Origin: Tannerella sp.
GTDB lineage: Bacteria; Bacteroidota; Bacteroidia; Bacteroidales; Tannerellaceae
Length of the DNA: 35,058 nucleotides
Direction of reading: 5' to 3'
NCBI GenBank assembly: GCA_031257565.1
Contig: JAIROL010000002.1
Location: 1 to 35,058 of the forward strand
The notes under the pieces were generated by a model that was not told the DNA's origin, made no database searches, and saw nothing but the letters and a program-made list of their open reading frames with translations. Within the stretch, counting starts at the first letter, position 1, and each line of letters opens with the position of its first letter. The position numbers and the translations under genes were made by a program. This document shows, piece after piece, positions 2,860 to 8,460 of this stretch.

Positions 2860-3633
2860 CTATTTTATTTTTTCTCTTACATCTTCAAGAAACTCTTTCA
2901 TTTTTACCGTATCCTTAGCCGCAATGACGTCCTGTAAGACTGACAGTTTTTCCTGAATACGGGCTATCTGACGCGGAGTACGCGGATTAAACAAGATTTC
3001 CGTCAGCAGGTAATCATCCTCGGATAAAAGTCCGCGCGCAATTTTCATGTGGCGTTTAAACGTCGTACCGGGCGCATCCTGATGGACCATGGTCGCAGCA
3101 AATACAAGCGTAGAAGCAAACGGAATACCAAGCGAATAGGCCACAACCTTATCATGTTCCTCAAATGTATATTCGAAGACATTAAGTTTAAGCTTGTCGT
3201 ATAAATCCTTAAAGAATATTTTTCCAAGATGATCTCCCTCTGAAATTATAATCGTATTTTCTTTTGCCAGATTCGCAAGATTTGCAAACGTCGGACCGAA
3301 CATCGGGTGAGTAGAAACATAGGGAAAACCGCATGTCGCATAAAATTCCTTCAGATTGTTTTTCACCGAAGCAATATCCGAAATGATACAATAAGGCTTC
3401 AGGTAAGGAAGCGCCGGTTTAAATGCATCTATTGTATAGTTCAATGTAACGCAGTTAATAACAAGTTCCGGAGCAAAATCTTTTATTTCTTCCGGCGATT
3501 GCATACGAATTGCATTATAGATAAAACGCATACGCTTCGGATCTTTTTCCAATACGGCTACTTCATGATCAAAACTCAGCAAATCGGCGAAGAAAGATCC
3601 CATCTTTCCCGCGCCCAATATCAATATCTTCAT
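2860..3633 (-). CDS. tyrA: Prephenate dehydrogenase
   Basis: The 257-residue protein catalyses oxidative decarboxylation of prephenate to 4-hydroxyphenylpyruvate, the tyrosine branch of aromatic biosynthesis. The Rossmann nucleotide-binding motif is at the N-terminus (GAGKMGSFFADLL, residues 7-19). A conserved HPMFGP motif of the prephenate dehydrogenase family follows near the middle. Length matches the short TyrA form common in Bacteroides and relatives, without a chorismate mutase or ACT domain. It is the last gene of the operon, 34 bp behind the DAHP synthase/chorismate mutase gene. Its stop abuts the stop of the convergent outer-membrane gene with no spacer, so there is no room for a conventional terminator between them. 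Confidence 0.93.
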   Translation of the reverse strand: MKILILGAGKMGSFFADLLSFDHEVAVLEKDPKRMRFIYNAIRMQSPEEIKDFAPELVINCVTLNYTIDAFKPALPYLKPYCIISDIASVKNNLKEFYATCGFPYVSTHPMFGPTFANLANLAKENTIIISEGDHLGKIFFKDLYDKLKLNVFEYTFEEHDKVVAYSLGIPFASTLVFAATMVHQDAPGTTFKRHMKIARGLLSEDDYLLTEILFNPRTPRQIARIQEKLSVLQDVIAAKDTVKMKEFLEDVREKIK

Positions 3634-3667: not shown

Positions 3668-4744
3668 TCAGCCGTTTTCATTCATTATGACCATTTGCTG
3701 ACGCACAGATTCTTCATGTATCTCGCTTAGTATTTTTTTTACGAAATCAGGGTTCAGCTCCATGGAAGAACCCATCTTTGTCCTATTTTCCAGGATCTCT
3801 CCGTAACGTGGCGTCTGTAAAACAGGCATATTATGCTCTTTCTTATACACGCCAATCTCGCGCGACACGCGCATGCGTTTTGCTAAAAGTTCCAGCAACC
3901 CTTCGTCGATGCTGTCTATTTGATGACGCAATTCCGTTAAATTCTCGGTTGTCTGCGTCACATCGCGTATAACAAGGAGATTCAGAATATAATCCAACAC
4001 ATCGGGAGTTATCTGTTGGGAAGCGTCGCTCAACGCTTCTTCCGGATTCGGATGCGCTTCGATGATCAAACCGTCAAAATTAAGGTCCATCGCCTGCTGG
4101 CATAACGGAGCAATAAGTTCCCGCTTACCTCCGATGTGACTCGGATCACAGAGGATAGGCAGATTGGGATAACGGCGACGCAACTCAATCGGTATATGCC
4201 ACAAAGGAATGTTGCGATACATTTTCTTATCATACGAACTGAATCCGCGATGAATAACGCCTATGCGATGAAGTCCCGCCCCATATATACGCTCGATGGC
4301 GCCTATCCATAATTCCAGATCGGGATTGACCGGATTCTTTATTAATACAGGCATATCCACCCCGTGCAGGGCGTCTGCTATTTCCTGAACGGCAAAAGGA
4401 TTTGCTACGGTACGCGCTCCTATCCATAAAATGTCGATACCGGCTTTTAAAGCTTCAAAAACATGGTCGCGCGTCGCAACTTCAGTGGCAACATACATAC
4501 CGGTTTCCTCTTTCACTCGCTTCAACCACGGCAGGCCTGCCGATCCCGCGCCTTCAAATCCTCCCGGCTTGGTACGCGGCTTCCATATTCCCGCACGGAA
4601 AATTTTTATCTCCTTTGAAGCCAGGGCTTTTGCCGTATTCAACACTTGCTCTTCCGTTTCCGCACTACACGGGCCGGCTATAACCAACGGGCGTTTATCA
4701 TCTATACCCGGTAGTAAAATTGATTGTAAATCCAGATTTTTCAT
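3668..4744 (-). CDS. Bifunctional DAHP synthase / type II chorismate mutase (AroQ-type domain)
   Basis: The 358-residue fusion makes 3-deoxy-arabino-heptulosonate 7-phosphate from phosphoenolpyruvate and erythrose 4-phosphate, and converts chorismate to prephenate. Residues about 1-255 form the DAHP synthase barrel: GPCSAE (24-29), RAGIWKPRTKPGGFEG, GARTVANP, LIKNPVN, HRGFSSYDKK, DPSHIGGKRE and IIEAHPNPEEALSDASQQ. Residues about 265-358 form an all-helical AroQ chorismate mutase (LRHQIDSIDEGLLELLAKRM, then REIGVYKKEHNMPVLQTPRY). This order, with the mutase at the C-terminus, is the Bacteroidota arrangement; in related bacteria the mutase domain acts as a prephenate-responsive regulatory domain. 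It lies 72 bp after the aminotransferase gene and 34 bp before tyrA, so it feeds prephenate to both branches. Confidence 0.93.
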   Translation of the reverse strand: MKNLDLQSILLPGIDDKRPLVIAGPCSAETEEQVLNTAKALASKEIKIFRAGIWKPRTKPGGFEGAGSAGLPWLKRVKEETGMYVATEVATRDHVFEALKAGIDILWIGARTVANPFAVQEIADALHGVDMPVLIKNPVNPDLELWIGAIERIYGAGLHRIGVIHRGFSSYDKKMYRNIPLWHIPIELRRRYPNLPILCDPSHIGGKRELIAPLCQQAMDLNFDGLIIEAHPNPEEALSDASQQITPDVLDYILNLLVIRDVTQTTENLTELRHQIDSIDEGLLELLAKRMRVSREIGVYKKEHNMPVLQTPRYGEILENRTKMGSSMELNPDFVKKILSEIHEESVRQQMVIMNENG

Positions 4745-4816: not shown

Positions 4817-6025
4817 CTATTCTAAATTCAGTTTTTTTATCCTGTCAAGCGCCGTCTCCAGCACATTATTCTTACAACAAAGCGAAATCCGCACATACCT
4901 GTCGCCTGTACTTCCGAATATGAAGCCGGGCGTTATAAAGACGTTTGCCTCATACAAAACCTTATCCGCCAGGTCTCCGCCACTTCTTGCACGATCCGGT
5001 ATCCTGCCCCATAAAAACATCCCTACCTGTCGCTTATCATAAGTACAACCCAGCGCTTCCATTATCTGTCCGGCAAGATCGCGGCGACTCCCGTATACCT
5101 TATTCATACCATCATACCAGTCCCTTCCCGCTTTCAACGCCTCTATCACGGCCGATTGCATCGGCCTGAACTGTCCCGAATCGACATTACTCTTCACTTT
5201 AAGCGCCCATTGCACAAACTGCGCATTGGATACCAGCATTGCCATACGCCATCCGGGCATATTATGTGATTTGCTCATGGAATTCAATTCGATGCAAATA
5301 CTTTTAGCCTCCGGAATACTCAATATGCTTCGCGGATTATCATTAAGAATAAAACTGTACGGGTTATCATTACATATAACAATGCCATGCGCAAGACCAA
5401 AGCTCACTAATTTTTCATACGTTGCAACGCTGGCGTCCGCGCCGGTAGGCATATTGGGATAGTTGACCCACATTAGTTTAACCATCGGTTTGCCGGCCTT
5501 TTGCCTTTCCGACAGCATACGCTCCAGTTCGTCAAAATCAGGATACCATCCGTTTTTTTCATCCAGTTCATAGGAAACAATATCTGCGCCGACAAGTTTA
5601 CTGACAGACGTATAAGTCGGGTACCCCGGATTCGGCGTCAGCGCCCCGTCTCCCGGATTCAGAAAGGCCATTGAGATATGCAAGATACCTTCTTTCGAAC
5701 CGATCAACGGCTGAATTTCCGTTTCGGGGTCAAGTTTCACCCCATACCATCGATCATACCAGTCCGCAAAACCTTTGCGCAAAGCCGGTATCCCCACGTA
5801 TGGCTGATAACCATGTACGTCATCTTTCCGTATTTCGGAACAAAAAGTATCTATTGCCTGTTCTGACGGGGGCATATCCGGACTCCCAACGCCAAGATTG
5901 ATCACATTCTTACCGGCAGCATTCATTGTTGCTACTTCTTTCAATTTCTTTGAAAAGTAATATTCTTCAACGCAGCCGATCCGATCAGCCGGACGAATAT
6001 CACACGCTTTGCGTTCCTTCTGCAT
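4817..6025 (-). CDS. PLP-dependent class I/II aminotransferase of the Phe/Tyr operon
   Basis: The 402-residue fold-type I aminotransferase most likely transfers the amino group to phenylpyruvate and 4-hydroxyphenylpyruvate, the last step to Phe and Tyr; this specificity is inferred from context. Visible motifs are NLGVGSPDMPP (substrate loop), HGYQPYVGIP, NPGYPTY, VNYPNMPTGA, the NDNPYSF segment, and the pyridoxal-phosphate lysine K252 in NSMSKSHNMPGWRM. The C-terminus carries RISLCC with the carboxylate-binding arginine. The chosen ATG overlaps the end of pheA by 26 bp and is preceded by AGGGG, so translation is probably coupled to pheA. The overall sequence resembles LL-diaminopimelate aminotransferase-like enzymes, which is the main alternative, but the gene neighbours favour an aromatic role. 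Confidence 0.88.
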   Translation of the reverse strand: MQKERKACDIRPADRIGCVEEYYFSKKLKEVATMNAAGKNVINLGVGSPDMPPSEQAIDTFCSEIRKDDVHGYQPYVGIPALRKGFADWYDRWYGVKLDPETEIQPLIGSKEGILHISMAFLNPGDGALTPNPGYPTYTSVSKLVGADIVSYELDEKNGWYPDFDELERMLSERQKAGKPMVKLMWVNYPNMPTGADASVATYEKLVSFGLAHGIVICNDNPYSFILNDNPRSILSIPEAKSICIELNSMSKSHNMPGWRMAMLVSNAQFVQWALKVKSNVDSGQFRPMQSAVIEALKAGRDWYDGMNKVYGSRRDLAGQIMEALGCTYDKRQVGMFLWGRIPDRARSGGDLADKVLYEANVFITPGFIFGSTGDRYVRISLCCKNNVLETALDRIKKLNLE

Positions 6026-6842
6026 ATTCCCCTAAAATTTTGAGATCTTTTGTTAACGGCATAATTGCATCCAAAGCCTGTTTATACCTTGTATAATCGC
6101 CAAAAGTCAGATCCACATAAAATAAATATTCCCATTCCCGCCCGATAATCGGCAATGATTGTATCTTCGACAGGTTCATATCATAAAAAGAAAGTATAGT
6201 CAGCGCTTTTGACAAACTTCCAGCCGTGTGCGGAAGTGAAAAAACGAGCGATGATTTATTTTTCGTCATTCCTCTTTGCATATCTTCCGCGGTCCATGGA
6301 TCTGCAATCGTAAGAAAACGCGTGAAATTCCGACGGTTTGTTTCAATTCCTTCCGCCAGCGCTTCAAGGCCATAGATCTCCGCAGCCCGTTTACCGCAAA
6401 CGGCAGCGTGCCCGTCCAGCTTATTTTCGGCAATCCACTTGGCGCTCATTGCCGTATCTTCTTTTTCCACAATCTTGACCCCCGATAATGTCTCCAGATA
6501 TTCGGCACACTGCATCAATGCAATCGGATGAGAATTGACTTCCGTTATCTCGGCTAATTTCGTTCCCGGTAAAGCCGCTAAAGCATGCGATATCCGTAAC
6601 TTATATTCTCCGATAATATGACATCCGCTCTGACGTACCAGTTCATGATTCTGCAACAAACTACCCGCAATGGTGTTCTCTATCGCCATCATCCCTATGA
6701 TCGATGCATCATCATGAATTTTCTTTATAACATCCCCGAATGAATGACATCCTATAATCTCAATCTCTTCTTCTCCGAAATAATTACGGGCTGCAGCGTC
6801 ATGATATGAACCCGATATTCCCTGAATAGCTACTTTTTTCAT
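6000..6842 (-). CDS. pheA: Prephenate dehydratase
   Basis: The 280-residue enzyme decarboxylates and dehydrates prephenate to phenylpyruvate. The periplasmic-binding-protein-like catalytic part is residues about 1-180, with GISGSYHDAAA, MMAIENTIAGSL, SHALAALPG, VNSHPIALMQC and the catalytic TRF motif (174-176) in NRRNFTRFLTI. An ACT regulatory domain follows (about 195-275: SLPHTAGSLSKAL, then LSKIQSLP where many homologues carry an ESRP motif), so feedback inhibition by phenylalanine is expected. It is the first gene of the operon. Its leader transcript of about 275 nt contains an apparent Phe/Tyr attenuator. The end overlaps the start of the aminotransferase gene by 26 bp. Confidence 0.95.
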   Translation of the reverse strand: MKKVAIQGISGSYHDAAARNYFGEEEIEIIGCHSFGDVIKKIHDDASIIGMMAIENTIAGSLLQNHELVRQSGCHIIGEYKLRISHALAALPGTKLAEITEVNSHPIALMQCAEYLETLSGVKIVEKEDTAMSAKWIAENKLDGHAAVCGKRAAEIYGLEALAEGIETNRRNFTRFLTIADPWTAEDMQRGMTKNKSSLVFSLPHTAGSLSKALTILSFYDMNLSKIQSLPIIGREWEYLFYVDLTFGDYTRYKQALDAIMPLTKDLKILGEYAEGTQSV

Positions 6843-6956: not shown

Positions 6957-6997
6957 CAAAATAAAAGTCCTGCCGTAAGCTACGGCAGGACTTTTAT
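6957..6997 (-). terminator. Attenuator terminator hairpin in the pheA operon leader
   Basis: A perfect 17-bp inverted repeat occupies 6961-6977 and 6981-6997 with a 3-nt loop. Read on the minus strand the GC core is GTCCTGCCGTA/TACGGCAGGAC, followed by the U-rich run TTTTATTTTG, which is the form of an intrinsic terminator. It lies between the leader peptide stop (7025) and the pheA start (6842), not after a gene, so it would stop the operon transcript prematurely. The 5' arm can pair alternatively with the end of the leader peptide ORF. Confidence 0.85.
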
Positions 6998-7047
6998 ATC
7001 TAAATCTCAATTTTTCCTTAATCTTTAATACATATAAAATTCCTGCC
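6984..7047 (-). promoter_or_regulatory. Predicted antiterminator pairing (segments 7047-7032 and 6999-6984)
   Basis: On the minus strand the segment GGCAGGAATTTTATAT (7047-7032) lies inside the last codons of the leader peptide. It pairs with ATATAAAAGTCCTGCC (6999-6984), the 5' arm of the terminator plus flank, in 15 of 16 positions. The first segment is almost a copy of the terminator 3' arm, which is how attenuators switch. A ribosome stalled on the upstream Phe/Tyr codons would leave it free to form the antiterminator. A ribosome reaching the stop codon at 7025 would cover it and let the terminator form. The pairing is read by eye; no folding energy was computed. Confidence 0.78.
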
Positions 7048-7102
7048 TTCGCCTGTCAAAGTAAAAGTAAAAATAAAAATATGTATTAAAATAATTTTTC
7101 AT
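7025..7102 (-). CDS. Phe/Tyr-rich leader peptide of the pheA operon (25 aa)
   Basis: The short ORF encodes MKNYFNTYFYFYFYF followed by DRRRQEFYMY and a TAA stop. Thirteen of 25 residues are aromatic (6 Phe, 7 Tyr), with eight consecutive alternating Tyr/Phe codons at positions 8-15 and no Trp. It begins about 15-20 nt after the predicted transcription start. This composition mirrors the end products of the operon behind it and is the hallmark of leader-peptide attenuation, as known for pheA and pheST leaders in enterobacteria. The stop codon lies about 28 nt before the terminator hairpin, and the RRQE codons contain the antiterminator segment. Ribosome-site signal upstream is weak (GAAAG), which is normal for this phylum. 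Confidence 0.85.
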   Translation of the reverse strand: MKNYFNTYFYFYFYFDRRRQEFYMY

Positions 7103-7122
7103 CTTTCGAGTATTTTCGGTTA

Positions 7123-7153
7123 CAAATGTACAGACTTTTTTCAAACCGCCAAA
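7123..7153 (-). promoter_or_regulatory. Promoter of the pheA operon
   Basis: On the minus strand TTTG (7153-7150) and TACATTTG (7130-7123, consensus TAnnTTTG) are separated by 19 bp. The transcript would start near 7117 and include the leader peptide, the terminator hairpin and about 115 nt more before pheA. Confidence 0.8.
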
Positions 7154-7267: not shown

Positions 7268-8050
7268 CTACAGTTCTCTTATCCAGATATTACGGAAACT
7301 GATCGGTTCGCTCGGATCGCCATGACTCTGCAAGATAATCGGACCGGGACCATGTTTTTCAACCCTTGGAAATCCGATATACTCGGTTGTTCCCAGTATC
7401 GTCGTATGATTTTGAACAACGATTCCATTATGAATAACAGTCACGCTCGGAGGCGTACGGTAGACGCCGTCTTCTTTAAAAACAGGAGCGGTATAAATAA
7501 TATCATACACATTCCACTCGCCCGGTTTCCGCATAGCATTTACCAGCGGACGCGCCTGTTTATAAATACTTCCCGCCTGTCCGTTCGAATAAGTTTCATT
7601 CTGATAATTATCCAGAATCTGAACTTCGTATTGTCCCTCGAGGAAAACGCCGCTGTTACCGCGCGCCTGGCTTGTTCCCGTTATGTTCGCCGGAACACGC
7701 CATTCTATATGCAACTGAAAACTTTCAAACTCCTGTTTGGTTTGAATATCCCCATGTTTCTTATTGACGGTAAATGTGCGGTCGTCATTAACAATCCATT
7801 CTGCCGCACCTTTCGTTTTTACGCTCTCCCAGGCCGACAAATCTTTTCCATCAAACAAAACAATGGCGTCCGAAGGCGCGGAATTTGTGCAAATATCCCC
7901 CGGAGTAATTATGGCAGGCTGCGGTAACCAGAATTCCGACATCCCGGGACGCATTTTTTCAGGTTCAGGATACTCTTTCTGAGCATGGGAAGACAGGCTT
8001 GACAAGGATAAGGCGGTAAAAACGCCTATTTTTAAAACATTGTTTTTCAT
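7268..8050 (-). CDS. DUF1080 (3-keto-disaccharide hydrolase-type) secreted protein
   Basis: The 260-residue protein has a signal peptide (about residues 1-23, ending SLSSHAQ), so it is exported. The remainder is one DUF1080 domain, a concanavalin-like beta-sandwich now named 3-keto-disaccharide hydrolase. Visible family features are IVLFDGKDLSAWES, the WIVNDDRTFTV strand, FQLHIEWRVPA, GNSGVFLEGQYEVQILDNY, the GQAGSIYKQ loop, GEWNVYDIIYTAP, NGIVVQNHT and the C-terminal ILQSHGDPSEPISFRNIWIREL region. Members are frequent in Bacteroidota and Planctomycetota and probably act on keto-sugars or related glycosides; the substrate here is unknown. It is monocistronic, with its own consensus promoter, and ends about 115 bp before the pheA promoter. 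Confidence 0.88.
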   Translation of the reverse strand: MKNNVLKIGVFTALSLSSLSSHAQKEYPEPEKMRPGMSEFWLPQPAIITPGDICTNSAPSDAIVLFDGKDLSAWESVKTKGAAEWIVNDDRTFTVNKKHGDIQTKQEFESFQLHIEWRVPANITGTSQARGNSGVFLEGQYEVQILDNYQNETYSNGQAGSIYKQARPLVNAMRKPGEWNVYDIIYTAPVFKEDGVYRTPPSVTVIHNGIVVQNHTTILGTTEYIGFPRVEKHGPGPIILQSHGDPSEPISFRNIWIREL

Positions 8051-8374: not shown

Positions 8375-8460
8375 GGTTGAATAAGAATATCCGTGTGAGG
8401 GGAGACTTTCACGCACGGTTCTGTGAGAGGCTGGCGCTGAAATGCGCCGGCCTACTCGAC
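8375..8460 (+). mobile_element. 3' tail of a group II intron (domains V and VI)
   Basis: CCGTGTGA...TCACGCACGG at 8391-8420 forms the domain V hairpin with its characteristic CG bulge. Domain VI follows as GGCTGGCGC/GCGCCGGCC (nine pairs, one G-U), then a segment holding a candidate branch-point A (CCTACTCGAC) and a 3' end at 8460. The base of domain V reads GAATATCCG where active introns have GAGCCG, so the catalytic triad position appears damaged. No reverse transcriptase or 5' domains lie upstream, only the IS66 scrap. The intron is therefore a dead 3' fragment. Confidence 0.72.

Follow-up and report, generated by a model that had tools for sequence, protein, structure and literature searches.

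The Escherichia coli pheL leader is rich in Phe codons and devoid of Tyr, and it controls pheA and not a joint Phe/Tyr operon. The E. coli trp attenuator follows a three-helix logic in which the control codons themselves constitute strand 1, and the leader described here resembles it on both counts. It also recalls the E. coli pheA system, where a short Phe-rich leader before the prephenate dehydratase gene responds to Phe-tRNA by attenuation (PMC11802643). The same source describes the Corynebacterium glutamicum aroR leader, in which Phe-Tyr-Phe codons precede an aromatic pathway operon and ribosome stalling is used; it differs from our case by its phylum, its operon (with aroF) and its response to Phe only (PMC11802643).

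Within the phylum, work on Flavobacterium psychrophilum gave strong clues that amino-acid operons are attenuated through leader peptides, and described a 5′ element ahead of pheA that is kept in Flavobacteriaceae and has no Rfam match (PMC9723704). This element has phylum and gene in common with the leader studied here; the accessible part of the account gives no leader sequence and is silent on covariation, on Tyr content, on a link to the operon and on occurrence outside the family (PMC9723704). Both are probably the same ancestral element. In Bacteroides thetaiotaomicron, long 5′ UTRs harbour small ORFs reminiscent of leader peptides (PMC7366714). In 2010, leader-peptide systems had, to the knowledge of the authors of one report, been shown only in Proteobacteria and Actinobacteria before their own Firmicutes case (PMC2965389), and in the accessible text of a paper on his genes, attenuation is mentioned for enterobacteria alone (PMC8305728). 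A literature search on leader peptides or attenuation in Bacteroidetes/Bacteroidota, Bacteroides and Flavobacteri gave only PMC9723704 and PMC7366714 as relevant, with a thin coverage of subscription journals and older comparative attenuator work lying outside it. The statement of the original prediction that attenuation is little described in Bacteroidota is right in that reports are few; the subject is not undescribed, as the clues and the pheA 5′ element of PMC9723704 attest. The mechanism itself is a classical one, and earlier reports had hinted that it exists in the phylum. The present analysis adds a Bacteroidales member, a covarying three-helix anatomy, the conserved Phe/Tyr mix, the association with a joint operon and the breadth of occurrence, none of which was found in print within this incomplete coverage.

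Anatomy of the leader region

The window, that is the whole stretch of DNA analysed (35,058 nucleotides of a Tannerella sp. contig, JAIROL010000002.1), carries on its minus strand a four-gene operon assigned by homology (Pfam) to Phe and Tyr synthesis, which matches the codons of the leader preceding it (Table 1). That this leader is a ribosome-mediated attenuator, as originally proposed, is supported by architecture, conservation and covariation. From these sequence data we estimate at about nine in ten the probability that it attenuates transcription of the operon pheA-aminotransferase-DAHP synthase/chorismate mutase-tyrA. Several elements by which an attenuator is recognized can be read in the sequence: an aromatic ORF, a terminator, an antiterminator excluding it, a protector hairpin, a spacing suited to stalling and a matching operon.

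Table 1. Positions of the leader elements, the operon genes and the upstream neighbour in the window
Feature	Position	Strand	Details
Predicted Bacteroidota-type promoter	7123..7153	-	TTTG 7153-7150, 19 nt, TACATTTG 7130-7123; sequence reading
Predicted leader ORF, 25 codons + TAA	7025..7102	-	ATG 7102-7100, stop 7027-7025; 13 Phe/Tyr codons
Segment 1, outer arm of protector hairpin	7079..7090	-	pairs with 7035-7024 in minimum-energy fold
Control codons YFYFYFYF, eight Tyr/Phe in succession; partly segment 1	7058..7081	-	sequence reading
Segment 2, antiterminator 5′ arm	7032..7047	-	within the leader ORF of the window; 15/16 pairs with segment 3; covariation
Segment 3, arm common to both helices	6984..6998	-	pairs with segment 2 or segment 4
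Intrinsic terminator hairpin (segments 3 + 4)	6961..6997	-	17 perfect bp, loop 3; then TTTG to 6957
pheA, prephenate dehydratase	6000..6842	-	PF00800
Class I/II aminotransferase	4817..6025	-	PF00155; overlaps pheA end
DAHP synthase-chorismate mutase fusion	3668..4744	-	PF00793, PF01817
tyrA-like prephenate dehydrogenase	2860..3633	-	PF02153, 30.9 bits vs cut-off 26.5
3-keto-disaccharide hydrolase gene, upstream of leader	7268-8050	-	same strand as pheA operon

The promoter, leader, segment 2 and terminator hairpin noted earlier are confirmed. What had been called a consensus promoter reads as a Bacteroidota-type one at the same place, TACATTTG corresponding on the minus strand to the TAnnTTTG -7 box, a motif that we took from the F. 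psychrophilum paper (PMC9723704). On re-reading, the short ORF has the announced codon content, including the eight consecutive aromatic codons, and encodes the peptide M K N Y F N T Y F Y F Y F Y F D R R R Q E F Y M Y. The claimed pairing of segment 2 with the terminator 5′ arm also stands (15 of 16 positions, -20.2 kcal/mol), no shuffle out of 200 being equally good. The hairpin is perfect, as predicted; its tail, said to be U-rich, proved short, with just three further U before a G, and is weaker than the tails of many relatives. Folding of the region 7123-6950 gave -49.1, compared to -24.9 (sd 3.6) for dinucleotide shuffles (z -6.75).

Between the terminator and pheA, the window has a gap of 118 nt (6960-6843), compared to ~15-51 nt in related loci having the leader; on reading, a TAnnTTTG box was not seen in this gap. 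On the plus strand, positions 8386-8460 match a group II intron (Rfam RF00029, 51.2 bits).

An E. coli-type sigma-70 promoter scan found no more sites than in shuffles, and its model does not cover Bacteroidota promoters. TAnnTTTG boxes were counted instead. Taking only the leaders having an ATG and sufficient upstream sequence (n=68), a box lies within 75 nt 5′ of the leader ATG in 67, compared to 164 of 3400 single-base shuffles.

A riboswitch, T-box or known Rfam leader was rejected, no family reaching its gathering score in the window leader. Phe_leader (RF01859) aligns with it over the full model (1-125) at 21.5 bits (E 0.22), far from the gathering score of 55, and is outscored by L10_leader, also sub-threshold (23.4 bits, E 0.066). 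A scan of 20 of the 21 class- and phylum-level loci lacking a scripted leader call (see below; L140 left out) gave zero family matches. A terminator-bearing RNA element before an amino-acid operon could also detect tRNA or the amino acid directly, without a ribosome, acting as a T-box, a riboswitch or a protein-bound leader. Given the Rfam result and a conservation centred on the aromatic codons, the competing arms and their spacing, we regard such direct sensing as very unlikely here.

Conservation ahead of pheA

Relatives were collected in one scan of a genome collection, which gave at least 577 stretches encoding a relative. The best 80 loci were kept; they belong to Tannerella, Parabacteroides, Bacteroides, Phocaeicola and other Bacteroidales, a few being labelled only Bacteroidia/Bacteroidetes. 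Among these best 80 of at least 577, an aromatic core followed by a hairpin is found ahead of pheA in 72. The leader is absent from seven (L021, L022, L025, L040, L060, L065 and L075), and one (L023) is not assessable, its contig being cut 43 nt upstream of pheA. Two loci missed by the terminator scan, L048 and L055, do possess the hairpin by reading, with almost no U-tract; the leader of L011 starts with GTG and L037 lies at a contig end. The leader of Phocaeicola vulgatus ATCC 8482 (L050) belongs to this set. The original prediction had called for a search upstream of orthologous pheA genes, and conserved aromatic ORFs followed by hairpins with covarying arms were indeed found there.

The leader goes with the operon. 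For the 68 of these best 80 loci (of at least 577) with at least 3.3 kb downstream, the order pheA-aminotransferase-DAHP synthase/chorismate mutase-tyrA is retained in 64. In the best-80 set, all 63 assessable loci with intact order have the leader (one further intact locus is not assessable), as against none of the four with another order (L021, L022, L025, L040). One of these four, L025, keeps a terminator hairpin ahead of pheA without the aromatic leader and is perhaps a decaying copy.

A wider draw gave a match in 45 of 158 class genomes and 88 of 99 phylum genomes, from which only the best-scoring matches were taken (n=51 besides the window). The scripted criterion was a short ORF, starting with ATG only, in which at least six of ten codons are Phe/Tyr. 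A leader was recognized in 33 of these 51 best-scoring loci (30 by script and three by eye); L098, L110 and L112 carry shorter aromatic leaders with a matching hairpin, found by reading. No leader was found by script or reading in 18 of the 51. By labelled kinship, it is present in 5/5 loci of the order of the window, 26/35 of other orders of the class and 2/11 outside the class. Here again the operon context matters: 33 of 41 loci with an adjacent aminotransferase or DAHP synthase gene have a leader, compared to 0 of 10 with pheA alone (Fisher p 3e-6, kinship ignored). In L108, an EPSP synthase gene ends inside pheA, which is therefore probably transcribed from a promoter further upstream; L116 is of similar appearance.

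The scripted criterion picked out 101 of 131 pheA upstream regions (each at least 120 nt, window included), compared to 21 of 2620 dinucleotide shuffles and 1 of 131 reverse complements, so that the leader ORF is not a chance product. These figures bear on a rival explanation, in which the hairpin would be the ordinary terminator of the upstream 3-keto-disaccharide hydrolase gene, whose strand it shares, and the Phe/Tyr ORF an accident of U-rich DNA. Such a reading is extremely improbable: the ORF is far above shuffles, the promoter box counted above separates the upstream gene from the hairpin, and segment 2 covaries with the terminator arm (see below).

In two loci of the wider set, two aromatic leaders follow each other, each with its own hairpin and T-run, at ~351 and ~198 nt upstream of pheA in L102 and at ~315 and ~188 nt in L129. 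They appear to be tandem attenuators before a single pheA. Scored singly, the first switch is matched by 1 (L102) and 3 (L129) of 200 shuffles; the second is uncertain in L102 (5 or 51 of 200, depending on the arm length taken) and unsupported in L129 (68 of 200).

Competing helices: pairing, covariation and geometry

Pairing between segments 2 and 3 was compared with that of 200 shuffles of segment 2. In 71 of 72 loci (the window and 71 related loci, including L025, which passes without a true leader), at most three shuffles were equally good. The exception, L037 (84 of 200), holds a mismatch in segment 2. In the wider set, no more than 10 of 200 shuffles pair as well in 25 of the 30 loci with a scripted leader call. 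The five others are L102 and L129, the tandem loci, and L106, L114 and L119, in which the pairing is without shuffle support.

Covariation was examined in an alignment of 73 leaders, from which L025 was left out. The seven-pair core of the antiterminator is paired in 96.9% over the 73 sequences, compared to 33-47% when the arms are slid, and three of its pairs vary on both sides (AU 40/GC 28, GC 57/AU 16 and GC 43/AU 27). For the terminator core, the corresponding values are 97.3% and 30-57%, with four pairs varying on both sides. In both helices, three measures lie above all 500 shuffles: the cells paired, the cells with both sides changed and the covariation score. Two other measures are less discriminating: the count of pairs changed on both sides and that of further pair types do not rise above shuffles for the antiterminator (reached by 493 and 500 of 500) and do so weakly for the terminator (reached by 82 and 26 of 500). 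Segment 3 takes part in both helices, and accordingly segments 2 and 3, often with segment 4, vary together, as in GGCAGGA/TCCTGCC, GACAGGA/TCCTGTC, AGCGGGA/TCCCGCT and AACGGGT/TCCCGTT. The RNAalifold consensus of the 73-sequence alignment contains the terminator only, because a competing helix cannot be displayed; named structures were counted instead.

On a PheA tree of the Bacteroidales set, each position of segments 2 and 3 changed 2-4 times, and each position of segment 4 changed 7-14 times. Given so few events, a test on independent pairs was replaced by one using the wider leader set. For 25 leaders from outside the order of the window (tandem loci L102 and L129 included), the summed energy of segment 2 with its true partner is -393, compared to -263 (sd 15) after permutation, and none of 2000 permutations reaches it. 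Taken singly, 13 of the 25 loci do better than with every segment 2 of another family (4 of 11 when one locus is taken per family). Segment 3 differs between families in this wider set, which is the stronger proof of covariation of the arms.

The relative positions of the elements are equally constrained. Segment 2 starts 10-15 nt past the last aromatic codon in all 73 leaders. In E. coli, the leading edge of the ribosome lies 15 nt from the first P-site base. With such an edge, a ribosome awaiting the last aromatic codon ends 9 nt beyond this codon, just before segment 2, and the spacing would let a ribosome stalled on the control codons leave segment 2 free in 73 of 73 leaders (E. coli edge assumed). 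The position of the stop codon, judged by distances only in the same 73 leaders (L025 out), is of two kinds: 2-4 nt ahead of segment 2 in 24, and 9-42 nt past the start of segment 2 in 49. The first arrangement is that of the E. coli trp leader, whose stop lies just before segment 2. In the 49 others, among them the window, the ORF continues through the segment 2 core, and in this they differ from the trp attenuator, which also has Trp as its control codons. In the window (7060-7025), the stop present in its five closest relatives (L001-L005), 4 nt before segment 2, is absent and the ORF is eight codons longer.

A protector hairpin (1:2) was scored in minimum-energy folds before segment 3 is made, when at least 13 of 20 bases around segment 2 were paired upstream. 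It was found in 64 of 73 leaders, compared to 416 of 1460 controls in which the upstream part, segment 1, was shuffled. Segment 2 pairs there with the aromatic codons, so that sensor codons and protecting strand are the same bases. Sequence comparison thus shows helices 1:2, 2:3 and 3:4 as foldable structures with conserved arms, and covariation for 2:3 and 3:4.

The energies of the two pairings were compared, as suggested with the original prediction. When the ribosome is stalled and transcription has advanced as far as segment 3, the most favourable fold is the 2:3 helix (-20.0 kcal/mol). In the complete leader with the ribosome stalled, the terminator is more stable at equilibrium than the antiterminator (-25.0 vs -14.8), and the choice must therefore be kinetic, made during transcription.

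Taken together with the classical models, these elements suggest the following course of events. A shortage of charged tRNA-Phe (very likely) or tRNA-Tyr (likely) would make the leading ribosome stall in the aromatic run and mask segment 1. Segment 2, at least 10 nt past the last aromatic codon, would stay just outside the stalled ribosome and could pair with segment 3 while segment 4 is untranscribed; the terminator would be blocked and the four genes transcribed. With both tRNAs charged, the ribosome would reach or pass segment 2, segments 3 and 4 would form the terminator and the transcript would end near 6957. If no ribosome is present, segment 2 would be occupied in the 1:2 hairpin and segment 3 would be available to the terminator; the operon would thus be off by default.

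Amino acids sensed and attenuators of other operons

Phe sensing by the leader is very likely. The last ten codons of the aromatic run comprise at least two Phe and at least two Tyr in all 73 leaders (365 Phe and 279 Tyr of 730 codons). When the cluster is defined by Phe alone, the non-Phe residues inside it are Tyr in 247 of 339 cases in these 73 leaders and in 51 of 82 in 26 others (L102 and L129 left out), and Tyr is present in all 99. This enrichment argues that Tyr codons are kept, not that Tyr is sensed: these codons also pair with segment 2, and the C. glutamicum leader ignores Tyr. The attenuator might thus sense Phe only, the Tyr codons being filler that keeps the control strand U-rich for pairing with segment 2. 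The precedent is the aroR leader, whose Phe-Tyr-Phe codons answer Phe and not Tyr (PMC11802643), and the location of the aromatic codons in the 1:2 hairpin makes an RNA constraint on UAC/UUU codons possible. We find a Phe-only sensor possible and rather doubtful, considering that Tyr takes most of the non-Phe positions and occurs in every leader, and that the operon holds a tyrA-like gene. Tyr sensing by the leader is plausible and rather likely, which is less firm than the sensing of both end products put forward in the original prediction.

Certain leaders may go further. Those of L098 and L110 contain Tyr-Phe-Trp-Phe-Tyr, together with a matching ACGGGAGG segment and a hairpin, and Trp occurs in 12 of 26 leaders from outside the order of the window. 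Leaders of the L098/L110 type possibly read all three aromatic amino acids.

Similar leaders were seen ahead of other amino-acid operons. In the genome of the window itself, MIAIQNLSILRSINVIVVLCREA lies 165 nt upstream of ilvD (L179, G000 contig 50), with a terminator-like hairpin and a 2:3 pairing matched by 3 of 200 shuffles, and MNIFNIHCPHHYNER lies 154 nt upstream of hisG (L142, G000 contig 56), with a terminator hairpin and a 2:3 pairing matched by 1 of 200; the segment boundaries of both were picked by hand. They are likely attenuators responding to Ile/Val/Leu and to His, respectively. As raw counts, a leader in which seven or more of ten codons are Ile/Leu/Val is found in 6 of 11 ilvD loci, Trp-Trp-Trp leaders followed by terminator-like hairpins in 2 of 11 trpE loci (L160 and L161, order-level relatives), and a His-His-Gly-His-His-His leader followed by a terminator-like hairpin in 1 of 13 hisG loci (L147, order-level relative). 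At contig ends, the script took an adjacent ORF for hisG (L141, L142, L151 and L153); the values given above for the genome of the window (L142) come from a second reading of its hisG. A convincing leader was not found at homoserine dehydrogenase loci, most of those fetched starting inside the gene.

Start sites in the phylum lack Shine-Dalgarno sequences, as reported for F. psychrophilum (PMC9723704), and A predominates in the 12 bases preceding 68 leader starts. On balance, we lean slightly towards a single ancestral Bacteroidota attenuator behaving as a mixed Phe/Tyr OR-gate, which would turn the joint operon on when either tRNA is short and in which ribosomes would track RNA polymerase closely without Shine-Dalgarno sequences.

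The breadth of these leaders is of interest in a phylum with few described leader peptides. Wide, covarying pheA leaders, together with those of ilvD, hisG and trpE, would mean that translation is coupled to transcription in Bacteroidota, which is directly testable, and the pheA leader may represent a natural two-input Phe/Tyr sensor in gut bacteria.
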